From NCBI GenBank assembly GCA_022453515.1, contig JAJNNY010000049.1, forward strand, positions 1-64,000: a stretch of 64,000 nt of DNA. The letters run 5' to 3'. The notes under the pieces were generated by a model. It was not told the origin of the DNA. It did not search any database and saw only the letters and a list, made by a program, of their open reading frames with translations. Below are positions 1 to 33,541 of the stretch, piece after piece. Both the position numbers and the translations under genes were made by a program. Every line of letters begins with the position of its first letter. The stretch's first letter is position 1. The stretch comes from Astrocystis sublimbata (taxonomy: Eukaryota; Ascomycota; Sordariomycetes; Xylariales; Xylariaceae).

Positions 1-807
1 GAAGCTTTTGTGGCAGCGTACCACCCTGATGACCCCAATCCTGATTGGGCCGACGATATACTGAGGCACCAATTTCTATCATCCAAGCTGCCAGCCGCGT
101 TGAAATTTCGCGCAATCATTAATGACTACCGGCTAAGCCCGCCCGGATTCTATGAAACATTCAAAGATTTTCTCATCAAGGTGATCATGATTCTCTTTAT
201 CGTGCGATGTGATCGCACTCGCGACCAACGACACGAATTCGACTTACTTGCCAGCGTGTATCTGACAGACGAGCCTAAGAACCAAGTCGTTGTCAATATT
301 TACACATACTCACCAGGTGTGGAGGAGGTCTCCGACACCATAGCCCGCTTCCATGGGGCGTTGGTTGGGCTGCACCAGCGCCACCGGGACATAGACAGCT
401 GGGATGACATAGCCTTTAGGTGGAATATCGATACCGATACTAGAGCATGGACTTCAACTATAATGTGCTGGGCATGCGAGCCAACTCCCAATCCAATACA
501 GGCAGGTCTCAACCGCAACAGGTTGCGAAGCATGAGACTTGGATGGTTTAGCCACGTGGATTCGCAACCACCTACGCCGGGACCAGATGACAGGGCAGCA
601 TTTCTGCGTTATTGGGAAATGAGGCGTGATGATATAAGTCGTTTCCGCTTTGAAGATATCACTCACTGTGATCCACGGAGAATGCCGGCACATCGTGTTG
701 CGATGGCAGATGTTGCGGTGGCAGATGATGAGATGGCAGATGTTGCGGTGGCAGATGATGAGATGGCAGATGATGAGATGTCAGATGAGGAGACAACAGA
801 TGAATGA
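1..807 (+). CDS. Unknown protein, 5' truncated mirror copy (left arm)
   Basis: This frame is open from the first base of the window and is identical to the C-terminal 268 residues of the gene at 6963-8261. It starts within WEAFVAAYHPDD and ends in a run of ADVAVADDEM-type repeats and an acidic tail. There is no start codon in the window because the 5' part lies beyond the edge. No domain is recognised. It exists only because of the palindrome, so if that is an assembly artefact this copy is not real. Confidence 0.6.
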   Translation, partial: EAFVAAYHPDDPNPDWADDILRHQFLSSKLPAALKFRAIINDYRLSPPGFYETFKDFLIKVIMILFIVRCDRTRDQRHEFDLLASVYLTDEPKNQVVVNIYTYSPGVEEVSDTIARFHGALVGLHQRHRDIDSWDDIAFRWNIDTDTRAWTSTIMCWACEPTPNPIQAGLNRNRLRSMRLGWFSHVDSQPPTPGPDDRAAFLRYWEMRRDDISRFRFEDITHCDPRRMPAHRVAMADVAVADDEMADVAVADDEMADDEMSDEETTDE

Positions 808-1297
808 TTACCCAGGGAGGGGCCGGAGAAACTAAGTAACCTAAGTTAAAAGATAAACAACAGCGACAACAATAGGACAGCGACCATGATAGGTAGCCAT
901 TGCTTAAGCAATACGTGATCTCTGAATCCTTTTTAGGAAATTTATTCTTACGTGAAGGTGTAAATTGCTCGGAAGGCATAATCAGTACTTAAGTAAGCAA
1001 TAAGTATTCCTTTAATTATGGAATAATTATAGAATAACCATTACATAATTAACAAACTGTCTTTAAATAACTATTATATAATTAAGTAATAAGAGAAAAT
1101 AAATAAGATATATTAATTTCTAAAGGGGATTCATATTTAATAGGTATAATTAAGACCTTGGAACTGTCTCATCTACTTTGTGTGGCACCTCGGCCCTCTT
1201 CCTTCCCCCTTTTCAATATCCGCAACCACAGCAGCTGTTTCCCTGTCTGCTAACCAGTCTGTCCTTGACTAAGGTTGGAGCCTTAAGGTTGTTCTGG
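808..1297. other. Intergenic, left arm: TIR copy and AT-rich tract
   Basis: This holds the mirror of the right-arm terminal inverted repeat at 891-985 and then an AT-rich tract rich in TAATTAT-like words. I see no gene. The mirror of this stretch is 6473-6962. Confidence 0.6.
891..985 (+). repeat. Left-arm copy of the 95-bp TIR
   Basis: This is the reverse complement of 6785-6879, the terminal inverted repeat of the element described at 6785-8625. Against the other TIR copy (8531-8625) it differs mainly by C-to-T and G-to-A changes, as expected after RIP. Confidence 0.75.
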
Positions 1298-2047
1298 TCA
1301 GGGGCGCAAGTCCAGGTCCACAGTCTTCTTGTCCTTTGCCGCTTCCTTCGCTTCCCAAATCCAACCTCGATGGTTCCACTTCGACCAGCCCGACAACCAT
1401 CCCAGAGGCAACCCCCCTTCTGGGAGGGATTTGAGTGCCTTCGATAGCGAGTCATGCTCGCTAGAACTTGAAGACAGTACCGTCTTCGTTCGAGAATAGA
1501 GCGTTTTTCGGGTATCAGACCAGATCCTCCAGACGATTCGCACCTTGCCCCAGGCGAGTTTATCGCCGTTGTCGCGGAACATCCCATCCACGGTCTTCTC
1601 AAATCCGATAGCCTTGTCGACATTTAGCTGCAGATTGTCCGTACCCATTCAGATCTCGACTTGGGCCTCCTCTTTCGTTTCGTTGTTCGTGTCGTCTTTT
1701 GTTTCGTCGTACTTGAAGTTCACAAAAAGATCTTCCCAGGCGGGACGTTTTCCGATTTCGATCAAATGGAACATTAGATAGAAAACGAATTCCTTGATGT
1801 GCCTCTGATGATGCGCAAGCAAGTGGCCAAACTGCGCGTCGATACCGTTGTCTCTCAACAGCTCCAACACCTCCCACCCTACCCTAAGTTTTTGTTCCTC
1901 GTTCTTGTCCTCTTCCTTCTTTTTTTCTGCTTGATCATTGATGACAGTTTGTCGCGACCCCTCAGGGCCAGTGTTGTAAGTGGCTCGAGATTCCATTGCC
2001 GGTCCCTCTGCGCCAGGCGTTGGCGGCACTTGTGGGTTATTGCTCAT
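1298..2047 (-). pseudogene. Unknown protein with in-frame TGA (left-arm mirror copy)
   Basis: Exact mirror of 5723-6472. Two open frames (132 and 116 codons) lie in the same frame, separated only by a TGA stop at 1649-1651, and the second starts with ATG immediately after it. See the right-arm entry for the protein description. Confidence 0.5.
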
Positions 2048-5000
2048 GTTGTATGGCAGGGGTGATGAAGTGGTCGGAAGTTCGAGAAACGAATAATTAC
2101 TGTATATGTGGTGTCGAATTTGAAACTTGAGCGATATCTTTGTAAGTCAGAACTGCTTATCAAAGAAGATGGTAGCGACGAGTGGTATTCATGTGCGGAT
2201 TTCCATCACACTTTATAGAAAACGGACAACTATTACCCTCGTCGGTGCTCGAGACCTGTGCTTAATACTAATTATGGCCTTTCTGCCTTTTCCTCAAGAT
2301 CATATAGATGAAACTTTGAGCATTTGGGAACGCGCTTAGCAAGCAAGGGGGGCTGTTTTGTGTGTAACCCATGCCCAAGGGTTGATTCACCTGCCGCCAA
2401 TCATGGCCTCCCTCAATAACAAACAGCCCGGATATCCTATCAATTGTCCGTAGTCAGGGACCCAAGTCGGGGGCTAAGTGATGCGTCACTGGAATTGGCA
2501 TTCGTGTTCAATGGACGAAGGGCGCCTGCAGTAAATCAAGACTGGATTCAATCATTCAGCTCTCGCAAATATGAAATAACATATTCATCGAGAGGAGACA
2601 CAAACACTGCTGATCACAGATCATGACATGCACCCACCTCTCAGCCTCAGCTCTAAAGATGTGACAACAACCTCCCTTGCGAGGTATGCATACGTATCGC
2701 GTAAGCTCAGCAGTCTTGCTGCACTGATTTCGATTACCGAGCCGCTATCGGAGTGAACATGATATGATATAGTAGCCCCCTGCGTATAAGAGCTCCCCCA
2801 AGATTTTGAAAGTCGCCAGTCCTTATGTAGCCAGGTTTACCCTACAGTTGACCCCTTGCCTGCTAGCTCCTGGGCGGCTGCGATCGAGGCTTCTACTACT
2901 TTGTATCTCCATCCATTTTGACAGTGGTATTATGCAAACTATACTGATTAGATGACGGTAGTATGTCGTATTTATTTCGTACTGTAGTTTCGTTAGCTCT
3001 TTGGATTGCCTTATCTTTTTTTTGCTTTGCTCAGTCTCGTGTATTCCGATACGCACTTATTCCAATCCTAAAGCTATTAAGATTAATATCCAACTAATAA
3101 CCCCCGACCTGTATTATTACATTTTTGCGGCGTAGCCCTAAACCAGCCCGTAATAGTCGATAGCTGGCAAATATCCATAAGTAACCACTTTAGTAAATCG
3201 ATATTAGAATATATGCCTTATTGCTTAAGTCTAAATCCGGGTCGCTATACTTTTAAAAACTGTTTATACCCCTTGCTCCCAGTGCGCCGTTGTAATATAC
3301 TTGGAGTTGGGTTATAGCTGGAGGATTGTCTGAAAGGTTCATATTCAGAAAGAAATTAGGTACGATAAAGAGATTATACTGTTTCGATAACATAATATAT
3401 TTATTTAGTTATATTTGAACGTATTGATCGAGCTAGTTAGGACTGGCATTATAGTATCGATTGGGATTACCAAATATAAGTAAGTTATACGTCAGGTCCT
3501 CTAGGTTTATAAATAGAATTTGCCCGGCAACCGATCTAGCATCCCTTACGTCTCTTTTGATAATAGGTAATACTGTAGTTATAAATTACGCCTCTATATA
3601 AGCATTATTATCTTTTTATACAAAGTCCTTAAAATCTCTTTGAGTTAAAAATAAAGGAGATAGAGACAGCTGTGGCTATTTATAACAAGGACTAGATCTC
3701 TAGGGCTTGGAATAGACTTTAATTTAGCTAATAATTCTCTAGGGCATAAAAGGGTTTATATCTTCCTAAAGCCTTTACTTTAGGCTAAAGGAATCTTTTC
3801 TATTTATATTTTTTTGAGTAACTTTTAAAGCTAGTTTTAGATTTTCCTTAGGTTTGTAATAATATTTATTATATTATTAATTTATTAATAAATATAAATA
3901 AATATTATTACAAACCTAAGGAAAATCTAAAACTAGCTTTAAAAGGTTACTCAAAAAAATATAAATAGAAAAAGATTCCTTTAGCCTAAAGTAAAGGCTT
4001 TAGGAAGATATAAACCCTTTTATGCCCTAGAGAATTATTAGCTAAAATTAAAGTCTATTCCAAGCCCTAGAGATCTAGTCCTTGTTATAAATAGCCACAG
4101 CTGTCTCTATCTTCCTTTATTTTTAACTCAAAGAGATTTAAGGACTTTGTATAAAAAGATAATAATGCTTATATAGAGGCGTAATTTATAACTACAGTAT
4201 TACCTATTATCAAAAGAGACGTAAGGGATGCTAGATCGGTTGCCGGGCAAATTCTATTTATAAACCTAGAGGACCTGACGTATAACTTACTTATATTTGG
4301 TAATCCCAATCGATACTATAATGCCAGTCCTAACTAGCTCGATCAATACGTTCAAATATAACTAAATAAATATATTATGTTATCGAAACAGTATAATCTC
4401 TTTATCGTACCTAATTTCTTTCTGAATATGAACCTTTCAGACAATCCTCCAGCTATAACCCAACTCCAAGTATATTACAACGGCGCACTGGGAGCAAGGG
4501 GTATAAACAGTTTTTAAAAGTATAGCGACCCGGATTTAGACTTAAGCAATAAGGCATATATTCTAATATCGATTTACTAAAGTGGTTACTTATGGATATT
4601 TGCCAGCTATCGACTATTACGGGCTGGTTTAGGGCTACGCCGCAAAAATGTAATAATACAGGTCGGGGGTTATTAGTTGGATATTAATCTTAATAGCTTT
4701 AGGATTGGAATAAGTGCGTATCGGAATACACGAGACTGAGCAAAGCAAAAAAAAGATAAGGCAATCCAAAGAGCTAACGAAACTACAGTACGAAATAAAT
4801 ACGACATACTACCGTCATCTAATCAGTATAGTTTGCATAATACCACTGTCAAAATGGATGGAGATACAAAGTAGTAGAAGCCTCGATCGCAGCCGCCCAG
4901 GAGCTAGCAGGCAAGGGGTCAACTGTAGGGTAAACCTGGCTACATAAGGACTGGCGACTTTCAAAATCTTGGGGGAGCTCTTATACGCAGGGGGCTACTA

Positions 5001-5722
5001 TATCATATCATGTTCACTCCGATAGCGGCTCGGTAATCGAAATCAGTGCAGCAAGACTGCTGAGCTTACGCGATACGTATGCATACCTCGCAAGGGAGGT
5101 TGTTGTCACATCTTTAGAGCTGAGGCTGAGAGGTGGGTGCATGTCATGATCTGTGATCAGCAGTGTTTGTGTCTCCTCTCGATGAATATGTTATTTCATA
5201 TTTGCGAGAGCTGAATGATTGAATCCAGTCTTGATTTACTGCAGGCGCCCTTCGTCCATTGAACACGAATGCCAATTCCAGTGACGCATCACTTAGCCCC
5301 CGACTTGGGTCCCTGACTACGGACAATTGATAGGATATCCGGGCTGTTTGTTATTGAGGGAGGCCATGATTGGCGGCAGGTGAATCAACCCTTGGGCATG
5401 GGTTACACACAAAACAGCCCCCCTTGCTTGCTAAGCGCGTTCCCAAATGCTCAAAGTTTCATCTATATGATCTTGAGGAAAAGGCAGAAAGGCCATAATT
5501 AGTATTAAGCACAGGTCTCGAGCACCGACGAGGGTAATAGTTGTCCGTTTTCTATAAAGTGTGATGGAAATCCGCACATGAATACCACTCGTCGCTACCA
5601 TCTTCTTTGATAAGCAGTTCTGACTTACAAAGATATCGCTCAAGTTTCAAATTCGACACCACATATACAGTAATTATTCGTTTCTCGAACTTCCGACCAC
5701 TTCATCACCCCTGCCATACAAC
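2048..5722. other. AT-rich palindrome core, no supported gene
   Basis: This contains the fold point near 3884. About 3060-4700 is very AT-rich, with many TpA steps and short stop-riddled frames, which looks like RIP-decayed transposon DNA. The 77-codon frames at 2823-3056 and 4714-4947 are mirror images with no recognisable similarity, and I do not call them genes. Confidence 0.6.
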
Positions 5723-6472
5723 ATGAGCAATAACCCACAAGTGCCGCCAACGCCTGGCGCAGAGGGACCGGCAATGGAATCTCGAGCCACTTACAACACT
5801 GGCCCTGAGGGGTCGCGACAAACTGTCATCAATGATCAAGCAGAAAAAAAGAAGGAAGAGGACAAGAACGAGGAACAAAAACTTAGGGTAGGGTGGGAGG
5901 TGTTGGAGCTGTTGAGAGACAACGGTATCGACGCGCAGTTTGGCCACTTGCTTGCGCATCATCAGAGGCACATCAAGGAATTCGTTTTCTATCTAATGTT
6001 CCATTTGATCGAAATCGGAAAACGTCCCGCCTGGGAAGATCTTTTTGTGAACTTCAAGTACGACGAAACAAAAGACGACACGAACAACGAAACGAAAGAG
6101 GAGGCCCAAGTCGAGATCTGAATGGGTACGGACAATCTGCAGCTAAATGTCGACAAGGCTATCGGATTTGAGAAGACCGTGGATGGGATGTTCCGCGACA
6201 ACGGCGATAAACTCGCCTGGGGCAAGGTGCGAATCGTCTGGAGGATCTGGTCTGATACCCGAAAAACGCTCTATTCTCGAACGAAGACGGTACTGTCTTC
6301 AAGTTCTAGCGAGCATGACTCGCTATCGAAGGCACTCAAATCCCTCCCAGAAGGGGGGTTGCCTCTGGGATGGTTGTCGGGCTGGTCGAAGTGGAACCAT
6401 CGAGGTTGGATTTGGGAAGCGAAGGAAGCGGCAAAGGACAAGAAGACTGTGGACCTGGACTTGCGCCCCTGA
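5723..6472 (+). pseudogene. Unknown 249-codon protein interrupted by in-frame TGA
   Basis: The ATG at 5723 opens 132 codons ending in TGA at 6119-6121. The next codon is ATG and the same frame stays open for another 116 codons to 6472, so the two parts look like one gene with a single nonsense codon. The N-terminal part is hydrophilic (Pro-, Glu- and Lys-rich, around KKKEEDKNEE), followed by a helical region containing RVGWEVLELLRDNGI and HLLAHHQRHIKEFVFYL. The second part is Trp-rich (WRIWSDTRK, GWLSGWSKW, GWIWEAKEA). I recognise no family. Alternatives are two adjacent genes, stop-codon readthrough, or a small intron removing the stop; I see no good donor and acceptor pair around the TGA. 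The mirror copy carries the same stop. Confidence 0.5.
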
Positions 6473-6784
6473 CCAGAACAACCTTAAGGCTCCAACCTTA
6501 GTCAAGGACAGACTGGTTAGCAGACAGGGAAACAGCTGCTGTGGTTGCGGATATTGAAAAGGGGGAAGGAAGAGGGCCGAGGTGCCACACAAAGTAGATG
6601 AGACAGTTCCAAGGTCTTAATTATACCTATTAAATATGAATCCCCTTTAGAAATTAATATATCTTATTTATTTTCTCTTATTACTTAATTATATAATAGT
6701 TATTTAAAGACAGTTTGTTAATTATGTAATGGTTATTCTATAATTATTCCATAATTAAAGGAATACTTATTGCTTACTTAAGTA
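6473..6784. other. Intergenic, AT-rich
   Basis: Mirror of 986-1297. It has AT-rich words such as AATTATA and no gene that I can see. It ends at the TA dinucleotide (6783-6784) flanking the TIR element. Confidence 0.55.
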
Positions 6785-8625
6785 CTGATTATGCCTTCCG
6801 AGCAATTTACACCTTCACGTAAGAATAAATTTCCTAAAAAGGATTCAGAGATCACGTATTGCTTAAGCAATGGCTACCTATCATGGTCGCTGTCCTATTG
6901 TTGTCGCTGTTGTTTATCTTTTAACTTAGGTTACTTAGTTTCTCCGGCCCCTCCCTGGGTAATCATTCATCTGTTGTCTCCTCATCTGACATCTCATCAT
7001 CTGCCATCTCATCATCTGCCACCGCAACATCTGCCATCTCATCATCTGCCACCGCAACATCTGCCATCGCAACACGATGTGCCGGCATTCTCCGTGGATC
7101 ACAGTGAGTGATATCTTCAAAGCGGAAACGACTTATATCATCACGCCTCATTTCCCAATAACGCAGAAATGCTGCCCTGTCATCTGGTCCCGGCGTAGGT
7201 GGTTGCGAATCCACGTGGCTAAACCATCCAAGTCTCATGCTTCGCAACCTGTTGCGGTTGAGACCTGCCTGTATTGGATTGGGAGTTGGCTCGCATGCCC
7301 AGCACATTATAGTTGAAGTCCATGCTCTAGTATCGGTATCGATATTCCACCTAAAGGCTATGTCATCCCAGCTGTCTATGTCCCGGTGGCGCTGGTGCAG
7401 CCCAACCAACGCCCCATGGAAGCGGGCTATGGTGTCGGAGACCTCCTCCACACCTGGTGAGTATGTGTAAATATTGACAACGACTTGGTTCTTAGGCTCG
7501 TCTGTCAGATACACGCTGGCAAGTAAGTCGAATTCGTGTCGTTGGTCGCGAGTGCGATCACATCGCACGATAAAGAGAATCATGATCACCTTGATGAGAA
7601 AATCTTTGAATGTTTCATAGAATCCGGGCGGGCTTAGCCGGTAGTCATTAATGATTGCGCGAAATTTCAACGCGGCTGGCAGCTTGGATGATAGAAATTG
7701 GTGCCTCAGTATATCGTCGGCCCAATCAGGATTGGGGTCATCAGGGTGGTACGCTGCCACAAAAGCTTCCCAGGACCATTTCAATATTGACGAGTCTGGG
7801 ACCCATCTACCTAATGCGCTAAGAACCTGCGATAGCTGTTCTTCGTGGCCGGGAATGGCATTGGTTTCTTGAGGGCTCGATACATCTGATGGGCTGGGGG
7901 CTTGTGCTAGTTGTTCTTCGCGGCCGAGAATGCCATTGGGTTCTTGCGAGCCCGGCGTGGCCTCAACGGCTGGTGGTATGGGGGGAAATTCATCTGAAGA
8001 ACTTGACGAACTTGCCATATTTCGTATCTCTGGTCTCGGTCGTCTCGGTCTTATCGATGGTCGCCATCGTCTTAATCGTCTTAATCGTCTTAATCGTCCC
8101 CATCGTCTCGATCGTCTCAATCGTTCCAATGCGCCACGGGCCGTCTGTGCTAGCGACGTTCTGCGGTCGGGACCAGGATTGGGTAATTGTTCAATTAGCG
8201 TGGCACTGGCGTCTGCTGGTGTGTCGGAGGGTTGATCTGACGACCTTTGCCTCGAAGCCATATTGCACGCGGCTATTTGATGTATGGAGTAAATATTTCT
8301 TTCGATAGAGGTGGGCAAGCAGGTAAGATGATGGAGATGGATGATCGAGGTAGATGGCAGAGTATCGAGGATGATGATCTGGGTAATGTGGTTGACCTCG
8401 ATGCTGTTCGGGCAATGCCTGGTTGATGCTTTCCAACATTCGCTCAAAATTGACCTAGGAAACAACGACCAATTACCTCACTCGAGCCATGAAAATAAGG
8501 TTACCTAGTCTGAATACTCAGGCAGGTGCTAGGTAACCATTGCTCAAGCAATACGTGATCTCTGAATCCTTTTCAGGAAATCTGTTCTTACGTCAAGGTG
8601 TGAATTGCTCGGAAGGCGTAATCAG
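6785..8625. mobile_element. TIR element with TA target duplication carrying one unknown gene
   Basis: Terminal inverted repeats of 95 bp lie at 6785-6879 and 8531-8625. They read inward from CTGATTAYGCCTTCCG, and both outer ends are bounded by TA (6783-6784 and 8626-8627), the target duplication typical of Tc1/mariner elements. The left TIR carries several C-to-T/G-to-A differences from the right one. The size (1841 bp) fits a Tc1/mariner-type element, but the single long gene inside does not look like a DDE transposase. It could be a cargo-carrying non-autonomous element or an element with an unfamiliar transposase. The palindrome's right arm ends inside this element at 7769. Confidence 0.65.
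6963..8261 (-). CDS. Unknown 432-aa protein inside TIR element
   Basis: The frame is open further upstream to 8465, but the first ATG is at 8261, with A at -3 and G at +4, so I start there. The N-terminus is Ser/Pro- and Arg-rich with a basic tract (RLRRLRRLRRW near residues 50-60) that could act as a nuclear localisation signal. A Ser/Pro/Glu-rich linker follows, with two similar segments containing REEQLAQ and HEEQLSQ. A globular part of about 230 residues (from WSWEAFVAAYHPDD) has a hydrophobic helix, FLIKVIMILFIV, near its start. The C-terminus is a short tandem repeat encoding ADVAVADDEM and then an acidic tail. I recognise no catalytic motif and no DDE triad. It lies between the two TIRs of the enclosing element, so it may be cargo or a diverged mobility protein. 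Confidence 0.6.
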   Translation of the reverse strand: MASRQRSSDQPSDTPADASATLIEQLPNPGPDRRTSLAQTARGALERLRRSRRWGRLRRLRRLRRWRPSIRPRRPRPEIRNMASSSSSSDEFPPIPPAVEATPGSQEPNGILGREEQLAQAPSPSDVSSPQETNAIPGHEEQLSQVLSALGRWVPDSSILKWSWEAFVAAYHPDDPNPDWADDILRHQFLSSKLPAALKFRAIINDYRLSPPGFYETFKDFLIKVIMILFIVRCDRTRDQRHEFDLLASVYLTDEPKNQVVVNIYTYSPGVEEVSDTIARFHGALVGLHQRHRDIDSWDDIAFRWNIDTDTRAWTSTIMCWACEPTPNPIQAGLNRNRLRSMRLGWFSHVDSQPPTPGPDDRAAFLRYWEMRRDDISRFRFEDITHCDPRRMPAHRVAMADVAVADDEMADVAVADDEMADDEMSDEETTDE

Positions 8626-17644: not shown

Positions 17645-19173
17645 CTAGTCTTGTAACGTGGTGCTCTCCTTCTCACAAGATGACTCCGGGGTCCATTCCG
17701 CCTTGATCAGTGCCTCTTTGCTCCCAGGTGGTATCGCTACACCTAGGAACTTGAATCGAGCATCTGCTTTGGTGAACAGAGATACCCAGCCCTCGCGATC
17801 ACGTTCCTTGCCATTAGTGAAGCACTTCATGACAATGTCATATCCCCTATTGGACACTTTAGTGACTGAGCGATGGGACTTGCTAGGTTTAAGGATCAAT
17901 TACCTCAGCCATTGTTCTTGGTAATTACTAACAACGCCCTTCGGTGGAAAGCAGGCGTCGCTGATAATCACCATGGCACCCTTTTTCAACGCCGGTATGA
18001 GATTTCGAAGGATTCGTATCGCATACTTGTCGCTCCAATCGTGGAATATCATCCGGAAAAAATATATGTCGGCGTTCTTCACGGGTTGTTCCAGGAAGAA
18101 GTCGTGGACCTGGAAGGAAACTCTATCTTCCACGCTTCGTGGGAGTTCCTGTCTTCCGACGGCAATTGTTCGAGCTGAGTCCTGCACAATGAAGCTCCAG
18201 TGTGGATAACTCTGTGCTAGGTCAATGCTCACATGGCCCTTGGAGCCGCCAACATCGACGAAAAGTGGTTGCGCGGATCCGTCAAGGCGAATACCTTCGA
18301 GGATATAATTGGGTTGGAACCCCACCCCCGAGTAAACGTATTCCATACCTTGAGTGAATCTTTTGATTCTTTGAGGATCTTGTTCCCAAGTTTGGAACGC
18401 GGGCTTAACCAGGCCGTGTGCTAGTGCGTATGCCTAAGCGAGAATCAATATATGTGCTATAAATTCATAATAGACATTAGTATAGGAGGCTTACCGATTC
18501 TAGGGGTTCTTGGGAACCAGGATACTTGGCGAGCGCCTCGGTGATCTATCAAATGTAAGCAAATCCATATACATATCGTTGTGCTTGTCTAGAGAGTAAG
18601 ATATTCACCTTCAACATCGGAGGCCAATTCTCTTTGGTCATGAGTCCCACCCAGGCTGAAAGGCCCGTATCATTTGCCATAAGAAATGATGAAGATGTAT
18701 GTGTGACCATACCGTCGTCGGTTTCATCGAAGAGATGATGAGCCATAGCAAGTCGAAGCATTCGTCTGGTATCATCCTCATCCAAGCCGCATTTCTTGGC
18801 AATGTCATCATATGTGGCCTTTTCATCCCAATTCAGATCGTACCCGATCTTGTAAGTATAGATGAAGTCTAGTGCCATAGCTCGAGTGCTCTGCAGGATT
18901 TCAGTATATTACATGAAATGAAGACTGGATGCCAATACATACAGCTGGACCAGCCTCCAATATAACTTCTGACGGTGTAGTCAGAAGGTTTTGGAGTTCA
19001 TAGCAAGCCTCTTTTGCTGTCAGACGAGCTATTTCAACCTCTTTAGGAAGGATGGACGGCTTTTGCGATTTGTTGTCCTGCCAGGAAGTTCCTTGGGATG
19101 AGTAGTAGTCCTGGCAAGCTTTGACATTCTGAGATATGGACGACAGTAATTCGGTTGCCCGGTTGGAAGACAT
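17645..19173 (-). CDS. SAM-dependent O-methyltransferase (COMT type), 431 aa
   Basis: Five exons: 19173-18943, 18890-18609, 18545-18495, 18433-17904 and 17846-17645. All introns are 52-63 bp with GT/AG ends, and together they give one uninterrupted frame. The N-terminal half is the winged-helix dimerisation domain (DDIAKKCGLDEDDTRRMLRLA). The C-terminal half is the Rossmann fold, with SAM-binding FVDVGGSKGH (residues 246-255) and the catalytic region FRMIFHDWSD in which His319 is the general base expected in this family. The end (RGYDIVMKCFTNGKER) is also typical. Fungal members methylate phenolic hydroxyls in secondary metabolites. It lies 1.6 kb from a candidate RiPP precursor gene, so methylation of the Tyr-derived phenol is a reasonable inference. 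It looks intact. Confidence 0.92.
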
Positions 19174-20777: not shown

Positions 20778-21003
20778 TTAGCCCTGCTCGGCATATAGCC
20801 CAGCATCGGGGTATCTGATGTCCTCATCACGGTCAGGATATCGAATCTGGTCATCATTATCATGTCGTGCCATCATGATGGATCCACCATCTGTTGCTTC
20901 TTAGCGTATGTTATCGTTCATAGGGGTTATTCAAGTTACCTTGAATGGGCTGAGCTGAGCAACAGAGCCCGAACGTAATAGCCAAGAGGGTGAAGAAACG
21001 CAT
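20778..21003 (-). CDS. Candidate RiPP precursor peptide, 58 aa, signal peptide plus repeated IRYPD core
   Basis: Exon 1 (21003-20940) encodes a strong signal peptide, MRFFTLLAITFGLCCSA, with a likely cut before QPIQ. A 49-bp intron (20939-20891, GTAACT...CAACAG) joins in phase 1 to exon 2 (20890-20778). The mature part has a short leader (DGGSIMMARHDNDD) and then two tandem units, DQIRYPDRD and EDIRYPDAG, which share the five residues IRYPD (37-41 and 46-50), and ends in LYAEQG and a TAA stop. Signal peptide, acidic spacers and a repeated core containing Tyr match the precursor design of fungal dikaritins (ustiloxin, phomopsin, asperipin, epichloecyclin), whose cores are crosslinked by UstYa oxidases. 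Here a UstYa gene starts 573 bp away in the opposite direction. It lacks the Lys-Arg Kex2 sites common in that class and has only two repeats, so the processing route is unclear. The chance that it is another small secreted protein cannot be excluded. Confidence 0.68.
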
Positions 21004-21575
21004 AGTGAAGGCGCTAATGGCTGTGAAGATTTGAGATCTCAATCTTTTAGAGTGAAATTGTAACGAGGTTGAGCTGTGAGTGTATCGGTGTGGTTCTGAG
21101 AATAATGGGATGTGTAAAACTATGGGACCAGCTGTTCTTTATGTACGGCGGTGTCGAAGGATTCCCTACTGCCAAGCCGAGACTAGTCTTGCCTCTATTT
21201 CCCTAATACCTTAGTCCATGCAGGCTCTGGTGTGAACACCACCCAACGGAGTGGACAATATGTCATCTACGTACCAGGATGACATATCAGCAGCCTTCCT
21301 CACCGTGTAACCCACCATGCCCGTATACGTGCCCTACCATGTTCCATTTCCCAAGCAGGGTTGCAGACGTGGTAAAAGGATCCTTATTACCTCAGTACTT
21401 ATTCTTATCCTTGCAAATAATTTATCTGCAGTCGTGTTTCTACATAGTTCTCTGAAACCCACTGCAGAATCTATTATTTCTCCTTTCGAGTAACCTAAAT
21501 CTTCAATACCAGTTTGGAAAGTCTCGCGTGTTATCTATCCACTGTTATAGCTGCCTGGGTTCTCTATCTGACAAT
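21004..21575. promoter_or_regulatory. Shared divergent promoter, precursor and UstYa-A
   Basis: 572 bp separate the start codons of the minus-strand precursor gene and the plus-strand UstYa-A gene, so the two are probably co-regulated from this interval. I see no gene in it and I cannot name a binding site with confidence. Confidence 0.45.
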
Positions 21576-22317
21576 ATGGATGAATCATCGAGGGCGGGAT
21601 CGGAAACAATGCCCTTTATCAATGTCCCATGTGATGAAAGGCCCTTGCCTTCTTCGGAGACTTGCAACGTGGTGAAGTGGTGGGCCAGACTCTCCCCAAC
21701 AACAAAATTTCTCGGCCACCTCTTTCTCGTTCTCCTTTATACACTTTTGTTCATCTGTTTTCTTTCCGGTGGCAGCGGAACGCTTATGCATCCAAATAAT
21801 GGTAAGACAGCAACACTAACAATACGTATGGAAATTTCTGTCTAACCGCTCGAAGCACTGAAAAACATCCGGTTTCGATGGCAACCCACAATGAGCATTA
21901 CAGCTGGTGCAAGTCCGTTTGCGGGCGGACCAAGCGATGCTGTCGATAAAGCCTGGAGTAGCCTCATGGAAAGTATCAGCATCAGGGTAACCCAAGACGA
22001 ACTCAACAGAAATGGAAATCATCAAACATCAATCAATTTACCCATCGGCGGGGGAAATCTGGCTTGGTTGGGAGCATTTCACCATCTGCATTGTTTAGTA
22101 TGTATCAATACTCCCCCCTTCAAGTACCTAGTTATTAGCTACGGTATGTGTCTAACTCGGCAAGAAAATGATTCGACAAATAAATTACAGCCACCACTAC
22201 TTCCCCAACCAAACCGAGGGCGAGAGGAAAGATCTCGAGGTTCATTTCATGCTCGAGATAGACTCAAGGGTGGTCAGTTTTGAGGAAGTTGACAGTCTCA
22301 AAAACCCACTCCTGTAG
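21576..22317 (+). CDS. UstYa-family (DUF3328) oxidase A, 206 aa, second motif degenerate
   Basis: Exons 21576-21801, 21856-22097 and 22165-22317 give one frame. The start is the ATG before DESSRAG, because the frame further upstream has no ATG. One transmembrane helix (FLGHLFLVLLYTLLFICFL) lies near residues 45-65, as usual for this type II membrane family. The first metal-binding HxxHC motif is present (HHLHC, 151-155), preceded by the typical ASPFAGGPSDAVDKAW and followed by KMIRQINYSHHYFPNQT. Where a second HxxHC is expected the sequence reads EVHFMLEID, so the His-Cys pair is replaced by Phe-Met and the protein stops early. UstYa proteins are copper-dependent oxidases or cyclases in RiPP and related clusters. 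This copy may be inactive, or a partner subunit in the way UstYa and UstYb act together. Confidence 0.82.
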
Positions 22318-22518
22318 TCTATAGTTGCCTAAGTACGTAGTCATGGCCTCCATTCCTAATGGAGTTGGTTATGTTATATAGGTACAAAACATTATAATCC
22401 CAGTTGAACGTTTGTAATTCCATGTTCGAAAGCACATCTATCTACATGAAACATACTATGGACTACTATCTCATCTTCAACAATTCACCATGCTCAATGG
22501 CAAGTGATTAAGCAAGAG

Positions 22519-23234
22519 TTAATCCATCAGATGCTGTCCCTGCTGAGCAATACTCCAAGCTACAATATCCTCCCACACTATACACACATGTTCCCCGTCA
22601 AGCCCTGTAATACCACCTAGTGATGGATTGACATATTCCACAGTCAGGTCCGGATTGCACATCAACATTTGCCGTAAGAAGTCAATGCAGTGTCTCGTAT
22701 GCCAGTCGGTCTCGTAATCATTCAAATCCGAGAAAGTGACATTTACTCCATATTTGACTGCATCGAATAAAACATAGTAGGCTTGTCTGATAGCATCTAC
22801 ACAATGGAGTTGATGATACACTGCCAGGCTTGCACCGTAAGGAGCAATCACAGGATCATGAAAGAAACCTCCATGGGGCGGAAATATCGACTCCCAAAGT
22901 TTATTCGTTTCCGCTGATGGGGCCTCCGCGAAGCTTTGGTTGTAAATAAATGAACCAGTGGCCACGCGAACTTATAACTCTGTAAGCTTCGAATGAATGA
23001 GACTGGAGTGTTGGTCTTACAGGTGGAATTCAAAACCGTACCAGTCGTGCCCACACATGTACTTCTATGCTGCATCTGGCTGGTTGAATATCCGGCGAGC
23101 GCACCGACAAGAAAGATGAGTAGCAATAGGAACACAGCTAGAGCTCTTTTGAGCCCTGTATATTCGCAGGATATCTCAAGGTGTCCAGGGACCGGCTCTT
23201 CATTGTCAACTAGCTGAGTGTAGATGGCGGCCAT
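22519..23234 (-). CDS. UstYa-family (DUF3328) oxidase B, 221 aa
   Basis: Exons 23234-23021 and 22970-22519 join across a 50-bp intron. The start is the ATG of MAAIYTQL. A transmembrane helix (ALAVFLLLLIFLVGALAGY) lies near residues 30-50, and the rest faces the lumen or outside. Both conserved metal-site motifs are intact: HQLHC (124-128, in AVYHQLHCVDAIRQAYY) and HTRHC (162-166, in DWHTRHCIDFLRQMLMC). The FIYNQSFAEAPSAETNKLWESIF segment, typical for the family, precedes them, and the end has the usual CIVWEDIVAWSIAQQ element. It converges with oxidase A and is likely a functional crosslinking oxidase acting on the cluster peptide in the secretory pathway; the substrate is inferred from context only. 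Confidence 0.92.
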
Positions 23235-23724: not shown

Positions 23725-24458
23725 ATGCGTATTCTCGATATGCTTGGGTCTCCCAGGTACTTTCAGCTGTTCCCTCTGGACCAACCTGAACGCCACCATC
23801 CACGGCCATGGCTCAAGCAAGTTCTTGCTGTTGTATTCATACTCTTCCTCATCGTCTCCACATTTGGAGTGTATCTGCTCTTTGAGAATCAGCCTCCAAA
23901 AGGGTCAATCTTCCAAGGTCGGCACATATGTTTTCCCTTGGTGAAAAGGAACTAACAGATCAAAGTCGATACTATTTCAAAGACATTTCAATACGATCGG
24001 AATTTTTCCTATGCCCCAAGCAATACAACAAATGCCGCGTGGCAAAGCTTATTTCCAAAAGGCGGAGGTTTCTTCTCCCACCCACCTGAGTTGCCATCTC
24101 GTGTCACAATATCGGTCTTTCACCAGTTACACTGTATGGTATGCCCCCCCTTTTTTTGATCAGTCTAGGTCTGGATCCTGTTGCCAACCTCTGATAGAGC
24201 GGTATCCATCGCGCTTATTGGCTTCTTTACGATGCGTCTCGGACCGGCCAAGGATTGTCGGATGAGGAATTCCCGCCGATGGCATCCCCATCCCACATCC
24301 GACATTGCATTGACTTAATTCGCCAAGCTTTGATGTGTCATTCGGATCGCACAATAGAACCCAAGGATGATACTGGAGGGGTAAGCGGGTTCGGAGTTAT
24401 GCACAGTTGCGTCGACTATTGGGGGCTAATTGAACGCATCGAGGAGTGGCAAACTTGA
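23725..24458 (+). CDS. UstYa-family (DUF3328) oxidase C, 208 aa
   Basis: Exons 23725-23917, 23966-24138 and 24198-24458. The first intron has a weak donor (GTCGGC), and its acceptor is probably the AAAG after CTAAC, because the nearer CAG is too close to the branch point; only this choice keeps the frame. The transmembrane helix is VLAVVFILFLIVSTFGVYLLF. Motifs are complete: FQYDRNFSYAPSNTTNAAW, HQLHC (117-121) and HIRHC (155-159, in SHIRHCIDLIRQALMC), with the C-terminal GGVSGFGVMHSCVDYWGL that is typical of the family. It is probably an active oxidase of the peptide pathway. Its downstream side is where the LINE inserted, about 70 bp after the stop codon. Confidence 0.88.
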
Positions 24459-31260: not shown

Positions 31261-33022
31261 TTAGGCATTCGCTTGCCTAAATTTCACATCCAGTCCAACA
31301 TGATCAAGCATCCAATACATAGTGATCTTTGGGGGATTTTCCGGGTGTGTGAACCTAATGTCGAACGTTTTCAAGACATTGGTCAAAATCATCCGCAGCT
31401 GAAGCATTGCCAAGTCGCGCCCGACGCAGGCACGGGTTCCTCTGCCGAACTAGAGATGAATTAGTTAGGGCTTAGCAATGGATAATGGGTTATAGCTACT
31501 GCGAGAAAGTTGCGTTCCATTAATCTCAGAGTTGGCTCGTCTGCTTCAAGCCAACGCTCGGGTCTGAAAATATGCGCATCTTCGCCGTAAACTGCGGTAT
31601 CTCGATGGACAACGTATTGTGGGACACTAACAATCGTACCCCCTGGAATATGATGACCGTTGAATGACATGCCGCTTTCTGGCACAACACGTTCCATGGG
31701 CGGCGAGTTTGATGAATATAGTCTTAGAGACTCCTTGATTACGGCCGTTCTGGGTCCGATATTAGCGGCTAAGCTAACAGACTTCCTTAAGGCGGTGTAA
31801 GATTGGTGATAACTTACATGTACCGGCTATTACAGGTAGCGTCAACTGCTGGATTACTGCGAATCCCCGTAACCAGACGACAGTAGACGTCTGGGTTACT
31901 CAGAAGGCAATAAAATGTGGTCCCGAGAGTGACAGCAACTTCTGCAGCAGCAGCAAAACTATCTATCGTAAGATAAAGACCAGGATGAGCCACTTACTAT
32001 ATTCACTTACAATGTTTCGAATAGGATGTTTACAGCTGTGGCGTGTTCATCAAAATTATCAAGGTTCTTCCGATCGGCGAGGACTTTGCAAATAAAGGTT
32101 TTATCACATCGATGAGTGGTTTCGTCATGAAGTTTGATTCGATTCTCAACTTCCTAAAAATAAATAAGATAATTTCCAAACATAGAGAAGGGGAGAAGTT
32201 CGATTACCTCCATAAACTCTTGCGTAGGATCCGGAAAGGTTTGAAAGTGTCGGAGAAAACCCATGACTCTATCATTGGCAAGGGTCCATGAGCACCATTC
32301 CGGCGTCTGCCCCAGAATCGCAGCGAATCCTGTAATAGTTTTGAAGGTGTATATCCATTGGTTCCAGTCAGCTCTGTTCTTCATATAGCCGTATGGAACC
32401 CCAAAGATTAGTGCAAATGTGATATCGAATGACCAGAAGAATGACCAATAAGATAGGTCGACGGATTCTTCTTGTGATTCCATCATCTGACCAACGAAGG
32501 TATCAATACTTTCTTTAATTTCACCCAAGAAGAGTGACGAGCATGTAGTCAGGTTCTTGCAAAGTATTGCTTTTAGTCGTTTGTTATGGGCAACATCTTG
32601 CGTTGTGAAGACTGTGTCCATTGGCTGGCCACGAAACAACGGTCGAAAAACATTATAGAATTCACTCTGCTATCAAATCAGCCTCTGACATACTGCCTCA
32701 TTCACAAGTACTTAGTTTGGTAATTTTCGAGACTAACTTTAACGAACAAATTCTTCGTATCATACACCACTGGTATACAAGAAGGATCGGCTATAGAGAT
32801 ATGATTTGGTCCTGTCTGGACGATGGGCCCATATCTGTGGTGTAGTTCTGCGTAATGGATAGGTCCTTTCCCATCACAAAGAAGCCAGATGCGATACAAT
32901 GGTGAGACCCGAGCTGGTAGCGGACCAGGAAGCGACCCAAGGCGTGGCCGAATTAATCGAAGGATGTATTTATAAGCGAATGCCCAAGCAAAGAAGACAC
33001 ATGCAAGCATGAGAAGTGCCAT
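31261..33022 (-). CDS. Cytochrome P450 A, 496 aa, atypical I-helix
   Basis: Six exons: 33022-32738, 32666-32208, 32153-32011, 31958-31818, 31773-31500 and 31449-31261, with introns of 44-71 bp; together they keep one frame. The N-terminal anchor is MALLMLACVFFAWAFAYKYIL, followed by the proline-rich LGSLPGPLPARVSPLY. Other marks are KSEFYNVFRPLF across the first junction, the ExxR pair (Glu357, Arg360 in VIKESLRLY), ERVVPESGMSFNGHHIPGGT, the FRPERW element, and the heme loop FGRGTRACVG with Cys442 as thiolate ligand. It resembles the pisatin-demethylase-like group. The I-helix reads FFAAAAEVAVTLGTTF instead of AGxDTT, so the usual proton-relay Asp/Thr pair is not evident; the intron there makes exact residues slightly uncertain. 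It is probably a tailoring enzyme of the peptide cluster. Exons 4-5 are the least certain. Confidence 0.85.
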
Positions 33023-33541
33023 TGCGAGTTTTTTGATTGATTCAGAAGATAATAATTGAGTTATCAGCTCAACCTCTTTCACTTCAATAAACAATCAGAG
33101 TTTGGTGCCTTTTGATGATTGTAGAAAGGTAGGCAGATAGGGTTAGGTAATTATGGTCATGGATACGAGAGACATCTTTGCTGTCGAGGTACCCATGTAC
33201 TGTGAGCTACGTACATGTACTGTACATGTTACGGTACTCACCTACATGTAAGGTATAATGCATGTACCTAGCACTGATCCATGTCCAACCCTGCCCAGGC
33301 GGCTAGCCACATGCGCAGGGGTGCTGCCTGGCTGCGACCCCAATTTTGCCCGCACCTGCAGCAGGCTTCCTTTCCCCGTCTTACTGGATACTCGGTACGT
33401 ACTGGCTGACGCACGGGACTTTCAATGCCTTTTCTACTTCTACATACCGACAAGCGATTAGGTAGTGCTTTTATCCCCAAAATCTTTCCCTTGTGCATAT
33501 CCTCTATCCTTCTACGCTCAACTTCATCCAATTCACACATC
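33023..33541. promoter_or_regulatory. Divergent P450 promoter rich in GTACATG palindromes
   Basis: 519 bp between two head-to-head P450 start codons. At 33190-33270 it packs several related palindromic words: CATGTAC at 33194, the perfect GTACATGTAC at 33211-33220, TGTACATG just after it, TACATGTA at 33243 and CATGTAC at 33261. These could be binding sites for a pathway regulator. Confidence 0.4.

Follow-up and report, generated by a model that had tools for sequence, protein, structure and literature searches.

A small two-exon gene next to UstYa genes in Astrocystis sublimbata as the probable precursor of a conserved dikaritin-like peptide family

A minus-strand frame of 58 codons in Astrocystis sublimbata raises the question whether a gene of this size, with a signal peptide, two tandem IRYPD units and UstYa genes close by, encodes the substrate of a ribosomal peptide pathway, and if so, of which kind. 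The 64,000-nucleotide stretch that we analysed (here termed the window) belongs to contig C134 (283,592 bases) of a 42.6-Mb genome in 189 contigs. The original prediction had described the frame, a 49-bp GT/AG intron that joins in phase and the twin units, and all of this was borne out when the sequence was read again (Table 1). We consider it probable that the IRYPD gene is the precursor of a new conserved UstYa-dependent (dikaritin-like) fungal RiPP family. The grounds for this view, as well as the findings that speak for other readings, are laid out below.

Table 1. Features of the IRYPD locus and a second small precursor candidate of the same genome (window positions unless a contig is named)
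Feature	Position	Strand	Remarks
O-methyltransferase (Methyltransf_2), possible tailoring	17645..19173	-	exon limits by eye
Precursor exon 2	20778..20890	-	pro-region, two core units, tail, stop
Tail AGLYAEQG	20781..20804	-	third conserved Tyr (16/17 rows)
Conserved block HDNDDQIRYPDRDEDIRYPDAGLYAEQG, 28 aa	20781..20864	-	likely mature region, from homologue alignment
Core unit 2, IRYPD	20805..20819	-	
Core unit 1, IRYPD	20832..20846	-	
Precursor intron	20891..20939	-	49 bp, GT-AG (GTAACT..CAACAG), phase 1, directly after signal peptide
Precursor exon 1	20940..21003	-	signal peptide MRFFTLLAITFGLCCSAQPIQ, 21 codons + 1 nt, phase 1
U1, UstYa-like, divergent from precursor	21576..22283	+	one HxxHC motif; PF11807
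U2, intact UstYa	22519..23234	-	HQLHC + HTRHC; F4808DRAFT_437230 (P0017)
U3, UstYa	23725..24458	+	HQLHC + HIRHC in separate frames (exons); exon limits approximate
Cytochrome P450, possible tailoring	31261..33094	-	limits by eye; beyond stretch of broken frames
C57 mini-precursor	L040:1902-2174 = C57:173901-174173	-	63 aa, two exons, strict scan

Gene structure and homologues of the 58-residue product

Joined, the two exons encode 58 residues followed by a stop, MRFFTLLAITFGLCCSAQPIQ-DGGSIMMAR-HDNDDQ-IRYPD-RDED-IRYPD-AGLYAEQG. Use of an alternative in-phase acceptor 9 bp upstream (GCTAAG) would shorten the intron to 40 bp and yield a 61-residue form, the three added residues all falling within the variable pro-region; the 58-residue form aligns with homologue P0001 free of gaps. 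Our signal peptide call is a heuristic one that considers hydrophobicity and the residues at positions -3 and -1, and by this measure the query as well as the full-length homologues begin with a hydrophobic stretch and have small residues around the probable cleavage site. The codons of the two units, ATTCGATATCCTGAC and ATCAGATACCCCGAT, differ at all five IRYPD positions, in each case synonymously, so the repeat does not stem from a fresh DNA duplication. The Tyr residue of the tail, like the core Tyr, precedes a small and then an acidic residue, and the tail AGLYAEQG may represent a degenerate third unit.

A search with the 58-residue protein scored six of six candidates (E 2e-18 to 7e-11), and a profile built from those six gave 16 matches at E ≤ 10 among 5069 candidates, 14 of which had E ≤ 5e-6, the other two scoring 1.8e-4 and 0.13. 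Byssothecium circinans CC80DRAFT_598493 is a named member. Since no identical 58-residue protein was among the database matches listed for the precursor, the gene looks unannotated. Searches for the family in IMG/VR (49 pattern matches) and in prokaryotic genome contigs (24 pattern matches) led to no confirmed member.

The resulting alignment has 17 rows (query plus 16 homologues); the identity means given here are derived from its eight full-length rows, while the 17-row counts include P0014, whose match is lost after unit 2, as well as P0015 and P0016 (E 0.13 for the latter), which have one common start and look like diverged copies. Mean pairwise identity was 48% in the signal peptide and 24% in the pro-region, compared with 95% for either unit, 100% for the spacer RDED and 86% for the tail: the C-terminal block is near-invariant, and signal and pro-region vary freely. 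Invariant in all rows are D41, D43, E44, D45, I46 and P49; R42, Y48, G52, L53 and Y54 are found in 16 of the 17, as is Y39, which is replaced by Trp in the remaining row. This aromatic swap at the first core Tyr (IVWPD in P0013) hints at which residue is modified. The position after Ile varies (R/V/E in the first unit, R/T/E/V in the second), and the pattern I-x-Y-P-D fits both units in 11 of 17 rows, the others differing at one position at least. Conservation of the spacer RDED and the tail AGLYAESG is roughly on the level of the cores, so that the mature unit may extend further than the original prediction had assumed.

Five homologues (P0002, P0005, P0006, P0007 and P0008) carry an insert exactly at the intron site of the query, and all five inserts start with Gly-Met or Arg-Met, as expected from a retained phase-1 intron beginning GTATG (N before GT ATG, N = G/C). 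P0014 likewise has a signal-like start and an insert, but the latter starts with Ser-Leu and does not fit a GTATG intron; P0001 and P0004, each of 58 residues, have no net insert. We infer from these alignments that the intron after the signal peptide is old and common to the family.

Neither KR, RR, KK nor RK occurs in the 58 residues, consistent with the earlier statement that Lys-Arg sites are missing. That this is unusual does not extend to the family as a trait, as four of the 17 rows have a dibasic site within eight residues before the block, namely KR in P0010 and P0012 and RR in P0007 and P0009 (two overlapping sequences). Between the units, a dibasic site was found in 0 of 17 rows. 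The query has a single Arg before the block, and within the eight residues preceding the conserved Asp32, 14 of the 17 rows have an Arg and two have a Lys only. For KEPs of the basidiomycete Coprinopsis expressed in yeast, peptides seemingly cut after a single Arg have been described, with Kex2 suggested by the authors (PMC9769878). Dikaritin precursors are usually described as having dibasic separators (PMC9769878), and owing to the absence of these we speak of a dikaritin-like rather than a dikaritin precursor.

The UstYa neighbourhood

When the genome was searched with its own precursor, three matches were listed, two of them being the exons; the third (C176:72689-72832, E 0.025) was rejected as a second locus, its translation having a stop and no repeat units. 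The precursor is thus a single locus in 42.6 Mb, and its ATG lies 573 bp from that of U1. PF11807, the UstYa profile, was found at about 20 places or more in this genome. Among the neighbours, which the original prediction had counted as three UstYa proteins, U2 and U3 hold up, with PF11807 scores of 5.5e-22 and 3e-13 for their frames and two HxxHC motifs each; at U2, the frame matches the annotated full-length F4808DRAFT_437230 of A. sublimbata with 100% identity. For U1, a single HxxHC was seen across the three forward frames of 21576-22520, and the match to the profile breaks off at position 138 of 220. In CctR, the two halves of the motif HxxHC(x)nHxxHC make up a binuclear copper site, and mutation of its His or Cys residues gave inactive enzyme (PMC12435403). 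Because the second half of this motif is missing in U1, U1 is probably not a working enzyme, leaving two rather than three plausible UstYa enzymes. U2 and U3 have the motif reported for CctR (PMC12435403) and in this resemble the UstYa/DUF3328 copper enzymes CctR and AprY. U1 (21576-22283) has the appearance of a UstYa gene that is truncated or in decay.

The 22 matches that make up the U2 relatives fall into 11 with both motifs and 11 with one, the latter being short or matching only part of the query. Seven matches of U2 to solved structures at E ≤ 1 (best E 0.27) were taken as chance, and horizontal transfer of U2 is not claimed, as the tree of 11 relatives has one well-supported branch among eight inner ones.

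Judged by its position, the O-methyltransferase would belong to the cluster; membership of the P450 is uncertain. No tyrosinase was found on C134 among the 30 genome matches listed, and no S41 peptidase among the five listed. The rings of ustiloxin and phomopsin are closed with the participation of a tyrosinase (PMC6514808, PMC7329392), and for the asperipin cluster no tyrosinase is among the four genes named in PMC6514808.

Several other features of the window may be recorded here. Between 24600 and 30700, G-over-C skewed broken frames without a clear gene, which by eye read like a decayed retroelement, separate the UstYa genes from the P450 genes. At the contig start, positions 1-3633 and 4137-7769 form a perfect inverted repeat of 3,633 bp with a 503-bp spacer that could be an assembly fold-back, and the segment 58979-59500 is an imperfect tandem repeat whose period ranges from about 87 to 183 bp. 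A near-palindrome at 21175-21194 in the gap between precursor and U1 was dropped as a regulator site. The pattern GAGACTAGTCT, with at most one mismatch, has three matches in the window (two being one site on both strands) at a chance expectation of 0.88, and nine of 100 shuffles had as many.

As a proxy for co-location across genomes, contigs harbouring the 16 peptide matches were compared with those of the 22 U2 matches, and by length no longest contig was common to both; the proxy is blunt, as each cluster is represented by its longest contig alone and U2 relatives enter it only if they share exact 5-residue words. On the Byssothecium contig (316 kb) and on a 131-kb contig, the peptide is present without a listed U2 relative. 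This result is in line with the strongest of the alternatives, according to which the gene encodes a conserved linear secreted peptide (a signal, pheromone-like or effector-like) that is released by one Kex2 cut at a basic site and undergoes no UstYa chemistry, the UstYa neighbours then belonging to something else. Conservation of the entire 28-residue block, spacer and tail included, is what one would expect of a receptor ligand, and the presence of one KR or RR before the block in four of 17 rows, with none between the units, fits such a peptide as well. Difficult to accommodate is that the gene sits 573 bp from a UstYa gene and beside two with both motifs, there being about 20 such places in 42.6 Mb, that its architecture equals that of other UstYa-linked precursor candidates (see below), and that twin units suit a RiPP precursor. 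In the kingdom-wide survey of Umemura 2020, moreover, pheromone-type repeat precursors were without DUF3328 neighbours, with three exceptions (PMC7329392). Repeated STE13-type XA/XP dipeptides, which after Kex2 sites are a feature of mating pheromone precursors (PMC9769878), were not seen by eye in the 58 residues. All in all, we regard a purely linear peptide as unlikely.

The state of U1 could also suggest that we are looking at the remnant of a dying cluster, with a real precursor that no longer leads to a product, U1 truncated and a decayed element interrupting the region. The single HxxHC of U1 and the broken frames lacking a clear gene at ~24.6-30.7 kb, as read by eye, would agree with this, but the precursor frame is intact, the two units differ only silently, the block matches that of the homologues, U2 has an annotated full-length counterpart, and both motifs are retained in U2 and U3 alike, which makes a defunct cluster very improbable.

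Precursor candidates at other UstYa loci

To place the IRYPD gene among its likes, we assembled 9.5 kb around each of 19 other PF11807 places and the same length of the window (20 regions, 190 kb), leaving out C57:120078 with its very weak PF11807 match (E 0.5). Under a strict rule (signal-like start, at most one intron, exact 5-residue repeat with Y/W/H) two finds were made, the IRYPD gene and one on contig C57, and 200 first-order Markov copies of the 190-kb set gave 10 matches in total, spread over nine copies. The notion of a chance open frame without function, conceivable for a frame that is small, apparently unannotated and in need of an intron, is refuted by the existence of homologues (16 database relatives, 15 of them below 1e-3); these Markov controls speak against it too, and it has practically no probability left.

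Two looser rules returned eight and seven rows, from which a second frame in L036, a second model in L040, L045 (GYSI) and L046 (PTWA) were set aside by eye as not precursor-like. What remained, again by eye, was a believable precursor in seven of the 20 regions: L036, L040, L042, L043, L045, L049 and the window. The same rules gave nothing in five Markov copies, for either rule, and nothing in a 64-kb non-UstYa control, where only about two would be expected at the UstYa rate. In all seven candidates a phase-1 intron with a GTA donor is possible just after the signal peptide; all six other candidates permit other splice choices too, with other phases in L036, L043, L045 and L049. In our view, no other local finding speaks as strongly for the IRYPD gene being a UstYa precursor as this common architecture.

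Dibasic sites by the repeats were noted by eye in five of the seven, and L036, L042, L043, L045 and L049 can be listed as UstYa-linked repeat precursor candidates of this type. L042 (C19) and L045 (C132) have a common RDGTTEFDPDF repeat, to which SEFDADL of L043 looks related, with Phe instead of Tyr. At L049 (C141:188500-198000), a tyrosinase match (C141:189692-190433) lies beside a UstYa pair and the precursor candidate, and the locus looks like a fuller ustiloxin-type cluster.

The find on C57, present at one place in the A. sublimbata genome, is the closest parallel to the IRYPD gene. Its units RQHGYTVHDYED and RQHGYTVHEYED represent two RQHGYTVH units, each after a single Arg; it has no dibasic site, a UstYa pair nearby and, by eye, a P450-like frame beside it. 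Both genes combine a signal peptide, a phase-1 intron and two Tyr-bearing acidic units that each follow a single Arg, both lack dibasic sites and both have UstYa genes nearby, whereas their core sequences are unrelated. Two repeats, which had been held to make the IRYPD gene unusual, are therefore not peculiar to it in this genome, the C57 candidate having two cores and no dibasic sites as well.

Proposed maturation and relation to known peptide families

Taken together, the predicted secretion signal, the Tyr core units and the UstYa (PF11807) neighbours support the kind of precursor that had been proposed for this locus. The dikaritin-like RiPP reading draws on a near-invariant block in a homologous family whose signal and pro-region vary freely, on a single locus whose start codon is 573 bp away from that of a UstYa gene, a family found at about 20 or more places in the genome, on the two HxxHC motifs kept by U2 and U3, and on an architecture common to seven UstYa-linked precursor candidates. 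It has to be set against the lack of peptide/U2 co-location by our proxy and of a dibasic site between the units, the lack of a tyrosinase or S41 match on C134, the apparently inactive U1, the conservation of spacer and tail on a par with the cores, and the small size of the 64-kb control. From the work of Umemura 2020 it is known that DUF3328 genes most often lie immediately beside the repeat precursor and that Tyr is found in 65.6% of the repeats that have DUF3328 neighbours and in 38.2% of those that have none (PMC7329392).

Gene, family, conservation and neighbours are matters of observation; from here on, we infer every biochemical step. The signal peptide would take the 58-residue product into the ER; a Kex2-type protease may then cut after the basic residue before the block and thereby free the 28-residue acidic peptide HDNDDQIRYPDRDEDIRYPDAGLYAEQG; a second cut could follow the conserved Arg42 between the units. 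Each acidic-I-x-Y-P-D unit would next be a substrate of the copper oxidases U2 and U3. According to the model put forward for CctR, this enzyme is tethered to an organelle membrane and its catalytic domain faces the lumen (PMC12435403), the compartment to which the signal peptide would bring the 58-residue product. Our guess as to the chemistry is an oxidative (ether) bond from the Tyr ring to the beta-carbon of the Ile two residues upstream and/or desaturation of Pro and Asp. This is by analogy with phomopsin, which contains a Tyr-Ile ether ring as well as dehydro-Ile, -Pro and -Asp, these dehydro residues being ascribed to three UstYa homologues (PMC6514808, PMC10512285, PMC10880069). The methyltransferase, and perhaps the P450, may finish the product. 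Computed [M+H]+ values of the unmodified peptides are 3336.479 for the 28-mer, 1387.587 for HDNDDQIRYPD, 1811.808 for DEDIRYPDAGLYAEQG and 663.346 for IRYPD.

The IRYPD gene resembles precursors of dikaritins (ustiloxin, phomopsin, asperipin-2a, victorin, epichloecyclin) in its signal peptide, repeated short Tyr core and nearby UstYa/DUF3328 genes (PMC6514808, PMC10512285), and that of ustiloxin also in cores flanked by acidic residues (PMC6514808, PMC10512285). It differs from them in having two cores, against a five-fold average (PMC10512285), in the absence of dibasic sites between cores and of a tyrosinase or S41 match on the contig, and in the high conservation of spacer and tail, which is similar to that of the core. 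With the KEPs of Umemura 2020 it has in common a secreted tandem-repeat precursor and a DUF3328 neighbour, yet the survey rule of at least three repeats of at least eight residues between KR/KK/RK/RR sites (PMC7329392) would miss a gene with two repeats and no dibasic site. A study on Venturia accepted one or more kexin-site-separated repeats of at least 10 residues (PMC9632046).

UstYa-linked repeat precursors as such are well known; what sets the IRYPD gene apart is its core, the lack of separators, the presence of two cores and its constancy. The literature searched, outside which most subscription journals fall, yielded no I-x-Y-P-D or IRYPD core in a fungal context, in agreement with the original remark about a core of unrecognised type. 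Titles retrieved with IRYPD concern insects, venoms and human immunity, those with YPDAG yeast redox and vaccines; YPDRDED and RDEDIRYP were not found in this literature.

What might such a constant peptide be for? A block this invariant is odd for metabolites of the kind and points to a conserved target. One tentative extension, which we think rather doubtful, holds that UstYa enzymes here have substrates with uncut cores: a single cut at a basic site would free the 28-residue acidic peptide as a multi-ring, conserved signal. If this were true, two Tyr units (or three, with the tail Tyr) would each be ring-closed on one chain, spacer and tail would be part of the product, and the latter would be a secreted signal and not a diversifying toxin. 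By 2022, the number of known dikaritins stood at just five (PMC10512285), and a study on lichens described UstYa clusters for which a repeat precursor could not be found (PMC12048977). Short two-core precursors are invisible to a kingdom-wide survey that requires three or more repeats between dibasic sites (PMC7329392), and the IRYPD family together with the C57 mini-precursor suggests where some of the missing precursors may be.
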